Shown piece by piece: positions 6,548 through 14,775 of a stretch of 64,000 nt of DNA. The stretch comes from a virus. How positions within the stretch are numbered: the stretch's first letter is position 1; every line of letters starts with the position of its first letter. The stretch spans positions 1-64,000 of IMG/VR virus record IMGVR_UViG_3300034104_005543. One strand, given 5' to 3'. A program made the translations under genes and the position numbers. Under the pieces are notes generated by a model. It was not told where the DNA came from. It searched no databases and worked only from the letters and a program-made list of their open reading frames with translations.

Positions 6548-6639
6548 ATACTTATATTTTGTAGTCACAAATATACGAACCTTCTTGTTAAGAAACAAGA
6601 GATGTAGGAGATATTTCTACCTCCCACATACAACTTGTC

Positions 6640-6769
6640 TAGCCGAGGACAGGATTCGAACCTGTATAAAAGACAAGCAGTTAGCCCTCACGATTGTAAG
6701 AGGGTTAGGGATTATGTCTATTCCCACATTTAACATACCACTGCGTATACCAATTCCGCCACCTGACTA
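6640..6769 (-). tRNA. tRNA-Leu-like gene, abnormal structure (copy B)
   Basis: The minus strand starts TAGTCAGGTGGCGGAATTGG TATACGC, the 5' acceptor and D-arm of a class II leucine tRNA, and ends with a perfect T-arm (ACAGG TTCGAAT CCTGT, 6649-6665) followed by CCTCGGCTA. The acceptor halves do not pair properly. The 3' end instead carries AGACAAG, complementary to CTTGTCT before the T-arm. The central part is too long and holds hairpins CCCTC/GAGGG and GGGA/TCCC; no anticodon arm could be assigned. Could be a decayed, chimeric or intron-bearing tRNA, or a tRNA mimic. Confidence 0.45.
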
Positions 6770-6772
6770 GGT

Positions 6773-6907
6773 TTAGTTCTTAAATATCGAAATTAGCAAA
6801 GAGATTATCTCTAGCCATCCAATTACGCCAAAGAATATGTAAGGCAATCTGAAATCATCCCATGCTGGTTTCTTGAATAAAAAAATAACTTTTAGAGCTT
6901 CTGCCAT
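6773..6907 (-). CDS. Small membrane protein between the tRNA-like genes (44 aa)
   Basis: ATG 6907 to TAA 6773: MAEALKVIFLFKKPAWDDFR then LPYIFFGVIGWLEIISLLIS and IFKN. The second half is one clear transmembrane segment with an amphipathic N-terminal part. It fills almost all of the space between the two tRNA-like genes. No family recognised. Confidence 0.5.
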   Translation of the reverse strand: MAEALKVIFLFKKPAWDDFRLPYIFFGVIGWLEIISLLISIFKN

Positions 6908-6920
6908 AATTTGTTTTTAG

Positions 6921-7042
6921 TAGTCAGGACAGGATTCGAGCCTGTAATGTAGGGAGTGGAGACCTTCCAACTTTATTATTATAACCTCCACATTCTGTTT
7001 TTTCGTTGCCCCGTAGCGTCTACCAATTCCGCCACCTGACTA
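6921..7042 (-). tRNA. tRNA-Leu-like gene, abnormal structure (copy A)
   Basis: The minus strand starts TAGTCAGGTGGCGGAATTGG TAGACGC and ends with T-arm ACAGG CTCGAAT CCTGT (6929-6945) and CCTGACTA, which pairs perfectly with the 5' end. Acceptor, D-arm and T-arm are thus those of a class II tRNA, best matching Leu. About 70 bases lie between D-arm and T-arm, some 30 more than usual. They can form GTGGAG/CTCCAC, but give no standard 5-bp, 7-base anticodon arm, so the anticodon is unassigned. CCA is not encoded. Confidence 0.55.
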
Positions 7043-7067
7043 ATTAATAATGTATTAAGACAATATT

Positions 7068-7331
7068 TTACAATACAAAAGAAGTATCGGTATCTAGATA
7101 AATACGATTGTTAATCCATTTCATTTCTATTGTTGCTTCTCCTGTATCGTACTTTACAAATATATTATCTTCATCGGGTAGTTTGAGTTTAAAGTTAGAT
7201 TCAAACTTGTATCCTGTTATATATAATAGATCTGTTATCTCTTGCTTTAATTGAGATAGATTATTGTAGGAAAAAGCGTGGTTTTTTTCTTTATCTTCTG
7301 GATTTTTATAAACTACAGAGACATTAATCAT
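7068..7331 (-). CDS. Hypothetical protein (87 aa)
   Basis: MINVSVVYKNPEDKEKNHAF then a helical LKQEITDLLYITG and beta strands (ATIEMKWINNRIYLD). Soluble, small alpha/beta protein with no family recognised. First gene upstream of the tRNA-like pair on the leftward transcript. Confidence 0.6.
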   Translation of the reverse strand: MINVSVVYKNPEDKEKNHAFSYNNLSQLKQEITDLLYITGYKFESNFKLKLPDEDNIFVKYDTGEATIEMKWINNRIYLDTDTSFVL

Positions 7332-7379
7332 AAACGTAATATAAAGATGTATAAATTTTATGCAATATATACTATAAAA

Positions 7380-7583
7380 CTAAAAATTCCAATCTTTTCT
7401 GTTGAGATATATACTTGCTAATATAACCACAATAGCAAAAGCAATCTTACTAGGAGCATCAAAAAATACTTCTTTAAATGGTATGTTCAAAATAAGACTA
7501 ATACCATAATCGATAAATATACAAGTTGATATTGCTGCTATGTAATAAATACAAAAACTAATTAAGCGCTGAAATCTGGTCAT
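7380..7583 (-). CDS. Small two-helix membrane protein (67 aa)
   Basis: Residues 8-32 (ISFCIYYIAAISTCIFIDYG) and 46-60 (KIAFAIVVILASIYL) are hydrophobic, with basic residues at both ends, so it should span the inner membrane twice. The linker LNIPFKEVFFDAPSKIAF is laid out like that of the paralogues at 7659-7871 and 15268-15462, though sequence identity is low. Function unknown. Confidence 0.6.
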   Translation of the reverse strand: MTRFQRLISFCIYYIAAISTCIFIDYGISLILNIPFKEVFFDAPSKIAFAIVVILASIYLNRKDWNF

Positions 7584-7616
7584 AATAAAATAAAATTGTA
7601 AATTAAATATTGAAAT

Positions 7617-7651
7617 AGGAATAGGATATTATAAAATAATACCCTATTCCT
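7617..7651 (-). terminator. Terminator-like hairpin
   Basis: GGAATAGG and CCTATTCC, extended by TATTAT and ATAATA, form a long hairpin directly after the 70-aa membrane gene. The following T tract is short (ATTTC). Confidence 0.55.
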
Positions 7652-7658
7652 ACTAAAA

Positions 7659-7871
7659 TCACTGACTATCTACATATGCGATAGTTATACCGGCACCTAT
7701 AGCAAAGTATAACAACCAAATCGGTGAATCTTGTAAAGTCATAAACTCACAAGAAAACAAGAAGGCAAAAAAGTAATTTAATAATGAGCCAATACCAAAA
7801 AACACTGCAACTGCTGCAAAAACTAAAGCAATGTAAAAACAAATTCTGAGCAAATGGTTAAATAAATTCAT
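7659..7871 (-). CDS. Small two-helix membrane protein, paralogue 1 (70 aa)
   Basis: Two hydrophobic segments (about 8-38 and 47-66) flank the loop FLFSCEFMTLQDSPIWLLY. The 64-aa protein at 15268-15462 has the same loop (LFAGEFIALQTSPIWVIY), so the two are clearly paralogous. Predicted inner-membrane protein. The conserved loop (EF-x2-LQ-x-SPIW) is its most distinctive part. Function unknown; membrane alteration or superinfection exclusion is possible but unproven. Confidence 0.65.
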   Translation of the reverse strand: MNLFNHLLRICFYIALVFAAVAVFFGIGSLLNYFFAFLFSCEFMTLQDSPIWLLYFAIGAGITIAYVDSQ

Positions 7872-7924
7872 TGTCTAAACAAAAGAAAGTTATTTTGGAA
7901 GCTTCAAGGTTTACCAACCTAGTA

Positions 7925-10072: not shown

Positions 10073-10233
10073 TTTGCACTCAGTTGTAATAGCGCCACTC
10101 CTTCATGTTATTCTTCAAGGAATAACTGATTTTGGTCATCTACTTGTGCACAGTAATCATCTCTAATAACTTATTATTTATAGGAGCTGAGATGAATATT
10201 ACAACTGCTCACCCTAGAGTGAATTAGTGCAAA
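10073..10233 (-). ncRNA. Structured RNA element, copy 2
   Basis: Same scaffold as 8282-8405: TTTGCACT/AGTGCAAA outer stem, CAGTTGTAATA/TATTACAACTG inner stem, with a side hairpin (TCAC TCTAGG GTGA) between the 5' arms. The larger apical region contains CATCTC/GAGATG enclosing CCTATAA, and GTTATTC CTTGAA GAATAAC (7-bp stem). It precedes the HNH gene by about 120 bases. Too short for a group I intron with its own core. A mobile RNA, leader regulator or processed ncRNA are all possible. Confidence 0.55.
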
Positions 10234-11863: not shown

Positions 11864-11886
11864 ATTCAGGTGATATTTAAATTATA
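11864..11886 (-). promoter_or_regulatory. Early promoter-like motif (SSB-like gene)
   Basis: The minus strand has TAATTTAAATATCACCTGAA, a variant of the shared motif, about 37 bases before ATG 11827. Confidence 0.6.
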
Positions 11887-12059: not shown

Positions 12060-12190
12060 AAAAAAAATACTGTAGTAACTGTTATGCCCCACACCTTTGG
12101 CGATGTTTTCATGGCTGTCATCTATGTGACAGTAGGACTATTCAATACAACCTTCTAGAAAGGATGTATTGTACATAACAATTACTACAA
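12060..12190 (-). ncRNA. Structured small RNA candidate with own promoter and terminator
   Basis: On the minus strand 12189-12174 (TGTAGTAATTGTTATG) pairs with 12086-12071 (CATAACAGTTACTACA) over 16 bp with one G-U, immediately followed by GTATTTTTTTT (terminator). Inside the closed loop are the hairpin CAATACA-t-CCTT/AAGG-t-TGTATTG and the perfect CTGTCA CATAGA TGACAG. The shared early motif lies at 12199-12223, just upstream. No credible reading frame fits. It therefore looks like a compact multi-helix RNA of about 130 nt. Confidence 0.65.
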
Positions 12191-12198
12191 TATCTAGC

Positions 12199-12223
12199 AT
12201 TCATATGATATTTACATTATTAA
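12199..12223 (-). promoter_or_regulatory. Early promoter-like motif (RNA unit at 12.1 kb)
   Basis: The minus strand has TTAATAATGTAAATATCATA followed by TGAAT. It lies directly after the terminator of the 95-aa gene and about 10 bases before the RNA closing stem. Confidence 0.65.
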
Positions 12224-13582: not shown

Positions 13583-13600
13583 ATCAAATGATATTAATAT
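13583..13600 (-). promoter_or_regulatory. Early promoter-like motif (105-aa gene)
   Basis: The minus strand has ATATTAATATCATTTGAT, about 32 bases before ATG 13551. It decides the start choice for that gene. Confidence 0.7.
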
Positions 13601-13675
13601 AAAATTCTTGTATGATAAATAGAGGGAATTTACCTACCTTTTTTGTTCATTATCAGTGAGTTAAGTCTTTTTTCT

Positions 13676-13831
13676 TACGCTTAAAAGTGTATTGGTCTAC
13701 GCTTAAAAGTGTATCGTCACACACTATATAGCGTAAGCATTGTAGATTTACGCTTAAAACTGTATTACTACACACAATAAAAACGTATGATTTGCTTGCA
13801 TATACGATTATTTTACGCTAAATTTGTGTAT
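13676..13831 (+). repeat. Iteron-like repeats before RepL-like gene
   Basis: TACGCTTAAAAGTGTAT occurs at 13676-13692 and 13698-13714, TACGCTTAAAACTGTAT at 13749-13765, and TACGCTAAATTTGTGTAT at 13814-13831 overlapping the start codon. An inverted relative TTACGCTATATAGTGTGT lies on the minus strand near 13720-13737. Such arrays typically bind a replication initiator, as origin and/or as operator of its own gene. Confidence 0.75.
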
Positions 13832-14279
13832 GAAAAAATCGTTTTTAAAGACAGCAAGCACTAATACTACCACTATAGTAGATAGTGAAACAGGTGAAGT
13901 AATAGGAAGTTCAGTGAATAAGGTAACTTATATTGCAAATGATAAGGATGAATTTTACCTTATGTATGCTTCTATGGTTTTAATACTCAAATCAAGTTCT
14001 GATGTGAAGATGAAACTATTTGCAGCACTGTTGGACAGGTATTCTCAAGGTCAAGAGTTTGCAATGAGTAAGTCCTTGAAGGATATAATAGCACAGGAAA
14101 CCGATTGTAAACCTCGTTCTTTTGATAGTGCTTTTACTTTTCTTCTTAAAGAAAAGATTGTATTTCGTGTTGCTACTAATCTATATAAGATTAATCCTAG
14201 ACACGTATTTCAAGGATCTACTGCAGAAAGGAATAAAGCACTAAAAGCAACTTTAGAATTGCATTGTCCAGATTGTTAA
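13830..14279 (+). CDS. RepL-like replication initiator / winged-helix protein
   Basis: 149 aa from ATG 13830; the frame can be extended to a TTG at 13824 but that is less likely. TTIVDSETGEVIGSSVNKV, a helical middle (DRYSQGQEFAMSKSLKDIIA), the recognition-helix region KPRSFDSAFTFLLKEKIVFR and the C-terminal NLYKINPRHVFQGSTAERNK follow the RepL pattern (wHTH then YxINPxxxxxG). It is the only rightward gene in the block. Iteron-like repeats precede it and the last one covers its start, suggesting autoregulation. RepL in crAss-like phages is linked to plasmid-like maintenance. Confidence 0.65.
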   Translation: MKKSFLKTASTNTTTIVDSETGEVIGSSVNKVTYIANDKDEFYLMYASMVLILKSSSDVKMKLFAALLDRYSQGQEFAMSKSLKDIIAQETDCKPRSFDSAFTFLLKEKIVFRVATNLYKINPRHVFQGSTAERNKALKATLELHCPDC

Positions 14280-14629: not shown

Positions 14630-14757
14630 ATGTGTAAGACATTATTGTTTAGTCTTACTGGTTTGACAAGGATTTCTGCCTTGTACAGCATGAAAATTAC
14701 ATAGTGTGTATTAAACTCGTTCTATCGTTTGTTCAAGAAATACTGTTTAATACTAAT
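14603..14757 (-). ncRNA. Structured small RNA candidate, four hairpins
   Basis: Starting just after the motif at 14758-14775, the minus strand forms, in order: GTATTAAAC/GTTTAATAC (9 bp; 14745-14753 with 14708-14716), ACAAGG/CCTTGT (14679-14684 with 14666-14671), GTAAGAC/GTCTTAC (14652-14658 with 14634-14640) and the terminator hairpin. The only open frame (36 codons from MLYKAEILVK) runs through the last two hairpins and into the next promoter motif, which is unlikely for a gene. The unit therefore looks like a dedicated sRNA of about 150 nt. Confidence 0.65.
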
Positions 14758-14775
14758 ATTCAAATGATATTAATA
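14758..14775 (-). promoter_or_regulatory. Early promoter-like motif (RNA unit at 14.7 kb)
   Basis: The minus strand has TATTAATATCATTTGAAT, immediately upstream of the four-hairpin RNA candidate. Confidence 0.7.

Follow-up and report, generated by a model that had tools for sequence, protein, structure and literature searches.

The minus strand of the window carries RNA1, a segment of ~135 nt (12195 down to 12060) that sequence comparison shows to be a genuine structured RNA, non-coding and conserved among phages related to the crAss-like group. The window is the whole stretch of 64,000 nt that was analysed, and is part of a virus record of 115,486 bases. We regard it as close to certain that RNA1 is a real conserved RNA. 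Its contexts place it within a modular set of RNA cassettes, since it is found inside frames that elsewhere hold varied payloads, framed RNAs are present in the window, and a second RNA (RNA2) has relatives of its own. There is about an even chance that RNA1 acts in trans, early in infection, by decoying or inhibiting a host component. The features discussed are collected in Table 1.

Table 1. Features of RNA1 and of the other RNA cassettes in the window
Feature	Position	Strand	Basis
Promoter-like motif ATATCATATGAA, immediately 5' of RNA1	12200..12211	-	motif scan
RNA1, structured RNA, ~135 nt	12060..12195	-	fold z -6.95; covarying relatives; no Rfam match
RNA1 closing stem, 5' strand, 22 pairs	12173..12194	-	fold
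RNA1 hairpin H1	12143..12171	-	fold; both sides changed in 8/11 pairs
RNA1 hairpin H2, most conserved element, CUGUC..GACAG, behind conserved flank CCUA	12115..12132	-	fold, relatives
RNA1 hairpin H3, ACAUC-GCCAAA-GGUGU	12091..12106	-	fold; both sides changed in 5/5 pairs
24-nt stretch AAAACATCGCCAAAGGTGTGGGGC	12086..12109	-	identical in window, L004, L087
RNA1 closing stem, 3' strand	12066..12087	-	fold
T8 tail, probable terminator	12060..12067	-	sequence
Frame-1 RNA, TTTGCAC..CAGTTGTA-payload-TACAACTG..GTGCAAA	8278..8405	-	payload vs L139/L234 95% identical over 80 nt
Second frame-1 RNA	10073..10233	-	matches L186 at 96% over 135 nt; present in L004 too
RNA2, behind same promoter-like motif	14640..14757	-	relatives L217, L232, L128

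Fold, conservation and distribution of RNA1

The minus strand of RNA1 has a predicted folding energy of -50.2 kcal/mol compared with -27.3 in shuffled sequences (z -6.95), a value equalled by none of 200 shuffles; the plus strand of the region gives a fold z of -3.65. The fold has a 22-pair closing helix (12173-12194 with 12066-12087) with three hairpins within, H1, H2 and H3, and a T8 run immediately 3', the first T residues of which are recruited by the outermost pairs. An earlier note on this DNA, which named no strand, had described a 16-bp closing stem around two internal hairpins; the stem stands, but in the minus-strand fold it has 22 pairs and encloses three hairpins. The T8 straight after the stem and the upstream motif that it reported are both present, the motif, ATATCATATGAA, ending 5 nt ahead of the closing stem. 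T8 is also seen in the relative L004, and the other relatives compared have no such run right after the stem; the combination of a promoter-like motif and a T-run after the stem, which marks a small RNA with an intrinsic terminator, is thus found in the window and L004.

Besides the window, 22 IMG/VR records hold a relative of RNA1; the resulting 23 records carry 15 distinct sequences. The figure of 23 is a lower bound, because most of the records are fragmentary and scanning relied on exact patterns. A pattern of stem plus T-run retrieves L004, a 122-kb contig and close relative whose structural proteins are near-identical to those of the window and whose early region is different. The core pattern retrieves a third contig, L087, and a pattern omitting half of the core six further records. 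A model search of 117 loci bearing the frame described below yields L203 and the distant L150, and a final H2 pattern gives 12 further model-confirmed records and one chance hit. L150 was accepted for its match to the exact H2 pattern and for the letters it has in common with L273 (49.6 bits); L158 (29.4 bits, H3 missing), which lies only 1.5 bits below it, was rejected. Also not accepted were the model matches L157, L277, L276:10733, W01, W04, W06, G026, G043 and L244, and the opposite-strand matches at RNA1 sites.

Structural conservation among related phages, one of the checks proposed in the earlier note, is borne out by these relatives. In a model-free MAFFT alignment of five sequences 12 of 31 pairs show double changes, a number reached in none of 500 shuffles and set against 0-3 in slid versions of the structure; with 15 sequences aligned to the model it is 24 of 31 (0/500 shuffles; slid versions 6-9), and 95.6% of cells pair. 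As the latter alignment was fitted to the structure, each sequence was also folded alone. The closing stem, H1 and H2 are present in all 15 separate folds, and the standard H3 is missing from the lowest-energy fold in three (L273, L274, L280); L150 has CGGC-AAGG-GCCG in its place. Independent predictions for L004, L087, L088 and L090 return this fold as well.

The conservation is unevenly spread. The sequences of the closing stem, H1 and H3 are almost wholly replaced with pairing retained, and both sides have changed in eight of nine modelled inner pairs of the closing stem (15 relatives). Near-constant parts are H2 with its flanks (CCUA-CUGUC..GACAG-C.UG), inside which L004 and L203 deviate, and the G-rich stretch after H3; the exact 24-nt core is confined to three sequences (Table 1). 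A constant junction on free stems would be the pattern of an RNA junction that is recognised by something. Ten of the 15 distinct sequences have, by eye, a 6-nt palindrome in the H1 loop (UCUAGA in seven, ACUAGU in one, UUGCAA in two), which is absent from L275, L282 (UCUAGG) and L274/L279/L280; a kissing-loop dimer through this palindrome is kept as a possibility. Palindromes in the loops of the framed payloads described below show no clear enrichment (11/105 loops, 117/1779 in shuffles). H1 also contains CCUUUCUAGA, presumably a resemblance to the 3' end of 16S rRNA; mimicry of that end was rejected because the stretch is not kept among relatives, being replaced by CCAUUCUAGAA, CCUUACUAGUU and CGGUUGCAAACGG.

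The earlier note saw no credible gene here, and we concur. Open reading frames overlapping RNA1 in the window are of 61-72 aa, and a spanning ORF is absent in 11 of 11 relatives checked. A short peptide gene within RNA1, in a frame starting MKTSPKVWGITVTTVFF, has practically no chance of being the explanation: the frame is found in both close relatives, the window and L004, but their DNA is identical there and its presence therefore tests nothing, the ATG is absent in L087 and L088, and core changes elsewhere ignore codons, so that the relatives refute it. Rfam 15 (4227 families, gathering thresholds) has no match in the window, and in the loci of eight relatives, at E up to 1, nothing over RNA1; those loci give one tRNA with a long insertion and three sub-threshold matches. 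RNA1 is not a tRNA or tmRNA, having no ARAGORN or Rfam hit. The tRNA (L091 4155-4258, minus strand; L093 7963-8066, plus strand; 40.3 bits in Rfam and missed by ARAGORN) has its insertion in the anticodon arm region, which suggests an intron or a tRNA-like RNA. At a modest level, RNA1 constitutes a well-supported structured RNA family lacking an Rfam entry, for which a covariance model can be built from the relatives.

The distribution of RNA1 is patchy. Among 16 RNA1 records, 11 match the terminase of the window, nine at 52-57% identity and two at 25-29%; four of the five lacking a match are shorter than 40 kb. G052 (29%) and G063 (55%) match the terminase as well. Model R2 finds no RNA1 in any of 49 IMG/VR records, many of them fragments, that were selected because their major head protein resembles that of the window, from which we take RNA1 to be dispensable; six named phages beside Fpv3, including crAss001 and phi14:2, likewise lack it. 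An exact-core scan of genome_contigs for bacterial homologues gave no hits, and of 12 bacterial stretches found with a relaxed pattern the best scored 18.5 bits with R2 and none was accepted. The 'phages' collection holds no credible match for the region in the window, for RNA1 as found in the window, L087 or L284, or for two framed stretches, the weak matches being 51 nt at E 0.2 (match H86) and 29 nt at E 5 (match H2); plasmids hold none for L087, and the neighbour protein used as bait returned no relatives. The palindrome TGTTYCACGTGRAACA, which we take to resemble a ParB site (parS), lies on both sides of RNA1 in L282 (257 and 382) and L285 (8210 and 8344), and is also found in L156 and L014. 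L087 additionally has ~600 noncoding bases (1980-2570) with many inverted repeats by eye and no Rfam match, possibly a larger structured RNA.

Constant frames and exchangeable payloads

About 400 bases past RNA1 in L093, the same letters that flank RNA1 in L092 enclose a different insert. A scan for this arrangement, frame 1, yields at least 120 stretches. Among the matches listed there are 129 copies, 123 with both ends, which reduce to 105 distinct framed copies with 52 different frames and 100 different payloads (13-239 nt), the payloads falling into 88 clusters. Three helical elements make up the frame: P0 (UGCAC/GUGCA) on the outside, the small hairpin H0, whose loop is UUCCCAAGG, and P1 (CAGUUGUA/UACAACUG) as the closing helix. 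Since the search pattern fixed the H0 loop and the P1 5' strand, neither is usable as evidence; of the H0 stem the pattern prescribed only the last base. Among the matches listed, the H0 stem is paired in 104-105 of 105 copies and draws on as many as five pair types; for P0, pairing is seen in 100-102 of 103 copies and includes double changes. The loop CCC could pair with the 3' GGG of the frame, a pairing with no covariation.

RNA1 is itself a payload in four of its 15 distinct sequences (L088/L092, L089-L093, L284, and L275 with a variant frame) and is free in the other 11. The two framed RNAs of the window surfaced in a comparison of payloads with the window; their H0 loops differ from the pattern, which misses such frames and so finds none in the window's record (G000). 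No 3' frame end other than these two turned up anywhere in that record (reversed control 0). Of nine noncoding gaps examined in the early region, seven match loci besides L004. Among the matches listed, frames sit in ORF-free stretches (median ~700 bases), the next ORF is on the same strand for 92 of the 98 copies that have one, and it lies a median 240 nt behind the matched frame start. The folding advantage of payloads over shuffles is slight (mean z -1.08; 23% of 98 payloads below -2). Of the frame-bearing records among the matches listed, 27 of 30 have a terminase match to the window, 17 of them at 52-57%.

Identical payloads recur amid different flanks, and this, with the terminal inverted repeats and patchy occurrence, could be read as marking the frames as termini of small mobile DNA elements, either MITE-like or of the single-strand transposon kind, with payloads as passengers. 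We consider this very unlikely, as the short separate helices H0 and P0 covary, the frames have a strand bias, the payloads are mostly unrelated (88 clusters for 100, among the matches listed) unlike the products of recent transposition, and RNA1 also occurs frame-free.

A second frame, frame 2 (ACUCUCAUCCAA..GCAGG-payload-CAAGG.UUGCAACCUUGUGAGAGU), is represented by 33 distinct copies, with the next ORF on the same strand in 27 of the 28 that have one; in this frame a 5' UUGCA or UUGUA possibly forms pairs with the 3' hairpin loop. Tandem arrays of varied structured-looking elements, frame 2 included, occupy L232 1700-3320 and L093 3512-4320. RNA2 has relatives at L217 7570-7692, L232 1960-2075 and L128 5265-5120, in which, by eye, the loops are kept (UUGAACAAAYGAUAG, GCAGAAAUC, ACUAAMCAAUAAUG) and the stems vary; the window copy folds little better than shuffles (z -1.0). 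The earlier note held RNA1 and RNA2 to be independent, which is so in sequence, but both lie in one cassette-rich region.

By design, the nearest known systems to RNA1 and the frames are the vrRNAs of VIPR and the Racrs. The vrRNAs, as described in the available portion of PMC13142463, are likewise ~100-nt phage RNAs in arrays with a variable and a structurally conserved part, but they carry 9-16 YNNGG repeats before the 3' tail, which have no counterpart here, and their variable part is not enclosed by two frame strands as it is in frame 1. RNA1 was accordingly rejected as a vrRNA: there is no tandem YNNGG, and the longest GGY run at 5-nt spacing is two among 100 payloads and one in RNA1. A VIPR- or CRISPR-like arrangement, in which a protein is loaded with the payload as its guide, would suit a variable part with a structured constant cap, the vrRNA design according to the same part of PMC13142463, but we rate it highly improbable given the lack of a GGY tract and an RNA1 core that is kept rather than varied. 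Moreover, among the 30 of 51 hits listed, payload matches outside masked frames fall mainly on further copies of the same RNAs; control searches gave 2 hits with shuffled and 6 with reversed payloads.

Promoter-like motif and presumed early region

The window contains 11 matches to the promoter-like motif at no more than one mismatch, compared with 2.83 expected, and none of 100 shuffles reaches 11. A motif of the same kind, ATATCATTTGAA, lies at 14759-14770 before RNA2, in keeping with the earlier proposal that RNA1 and the 14.7-kb RNA share a promoter. At most neighbouring minus-strand genes the motif is 4-37 nt ahead of the ATG. Two cases in the window and three in L004 have a gap of only 4 nt, from which we take it that transcription probably begins immediately beyond the motif; RNA1 would then probably start at the foot of its closing stem. 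A separate copy of the motif, at 11876 in the window and 11054 in L004, belongs to the gene next after RNA1.

The terminase and major head protein of the window match phrog_6681 and phrog_11589, and the terminase is less than 60% identical to those of records annotated as Crassvirales or other phages of Bacteroidota. Structural genes are on the plus strand from ~16 kb and small genes on the minus strand below ~15.7 kb. The corresponding module of crAss001 is expressed first, according to the part of PMC8375218 available, and by this analogy the minus-strand part of the window is presumably the early region, which lends positional support to the earlier description of RNA1 as early. RNA1 is on the same strand as its neighbour genes in this presumed early region. 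In L274, L279, L282 and L285 it follows the ORF that comes immediately after the strand switch, as expected at the start of an early region.

Two readings of RNA1 draw on this setting. In the first, RNA1 and the frames are cis elements of early mRNAs (processing, stabilising or insulating) and there is no free trans RNA. RNA1 is 40-52 nt ahead of the next ORF in L274, L280, L284 and L087, the frames have a strong same-strand bias, and the median 240-nt gap from frame to ORF fits a cis role also, which counts against action in trans. We nonetheless think this reading unlikely: in the window and L004 RNA1 has its own motif and T8 and the next gene its own motif, a mere insulator would not need a near-constant H2 and junction, and the downstream ORFs vary by locus, as seen by eye. 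A riboswitch or attenuator was rejected because the nearest downstream ORFs are short and apparently unrelated between relatives with flanking sequence (by eye).

In the second, RNA1 is a regulatory RNA, either a 6S-like ligand of phage or host RNA polymerase or a base-pairing small RNA. The early position, a single-strand DNA-binding-like gene in the same operon region of the window and the conserved unpaired stretches agree with this, but neither the window nor the eight relatives' loci have a 6S match in Rfam, 6S RNA being a single bulged rod unlike the three-hairpin junction of RNA1, and RNA1 has no further copy in its own 115-kb record, promoter similarity aside. We judge it decidedly unlikely.

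An ORF of 151 aa on the plus strand (13600-14279), amid the minus-strand early region and with repeats of ACGCTTAAAAGTGTAT ahead, looks by eye like an inserted replication-type gene with iterons; a PHROG comparison of it was without match.

A proposed host-directed role

The reading we prefer, action in trans on a host component, draws on the promoter-like motif and T-run of RNA1, the conserved junction on free stems, the lack of a conserved downstream gene, its reuse with and without frame, its patchy spread, and the hypervariable sister RNAs nearby. On this view a phage promoter would drive early transcription of RNA1, yielding a free, stable RNA of ~135 nt. Frames would serve as handles for folding, processing and stability, with the payloads performing the work. 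The conserved junction would bind a host protein or complex, a small ligand being less likely, and the bound factor would be blocked or diverted, so that RNA1 acts as decoy or inhibitor in host take-over or counter-defence. A modular, exchangeable and patchy distribution fits what an accessory host-directed element would show, and an anti-defence role is possible. The earlier note had proposed a likely early regulatory, decoy or anti-defence RNA, an interpretation that is supported in part: for the RNA as such and, by position, for its being early, whereas the functions it named may hold. Searches for a host or phage target of RNA1 found none.

More tentatively, and with a chance somewhat below even, these phages may carry an early-region arsenal of exchangeable RNA cassettes in which constant frames display hypervariable payloads, RNA1 being a payload useful enough for distant phages to retain, one that recurs both with and without a frame and that in this phage has its own promoter and terminator. 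Such an arsenal would be an RNA counterpart of protein anti-defence islands, shuffled between phages, and widespread phages would fight or reprogram their hosts by RNA modules invisible to protein-based annotation. A constant frame with a variable payload would also be a natural display scaffold and could reveal host factors that phages must bind.

ROOL and GOLLD are structured RNAs of several hundred nt, partly in phages and of unknown function, and differ from RNA1 in that they are Rfam families and RNA1 has no Rfam match. Phage T4 RNAs C and D are stable small RNAs, also of unknown function, within a tRNA cluster beside small RNA genes. The 6S RNA and phi29 pRNA are compact RNAs that bind large protein machines, with an architecture unlike that of RNA1, which has no Rfam match to either. 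A small phage RNA is a known kind, but a constant frame with exchangeable hypervariable payloads is something that we could assign to none. Racrs (RNA anti-CRISPRs) are, in the portion of PMC10651486 available, small non-coding phage RNAs that are solitary and disarm a host system by decoy. RNA1 is like them in being a small non-coding RNA encoded alone in a viral genome; compared by description, it differs in that Racrs mimic CRISPR repeats, whereas the outer stem of RNA1 is free in sequence and its multi-helix junction conserved (same part of PMC10651486). Searches of the open PMC literature, outside which most preprints and subscription papers lie, turned up no report of RNA1 or of framed RNA arrays in such phages, and as this coverage is partial it is not proof that there is no earlier report; in its available part, PMC8040213, on structured RNAs in human microbiomes, does not name crAss-like phages.

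A Y RNA with a TROVE-domain partner was rejected. Such a protein is encoded in one of 35 records searched, several of them fragments, namely crAss001 (MH675552 97428-97706), itself without RNA1; it is absent from the other 34, including the window's record (G000). The crAss001 gene sits in the early module according to the available part of PMC8375218.

RNA cassettes, if this reading holds, account for long 'empty' stretches of the early region, several of them in the window. A further stretch of 1.3 kb in the early region (6599-7924) is without genes of listed size; pieces of it match 15 other loci, and it possibly holds further RNA cassettes.
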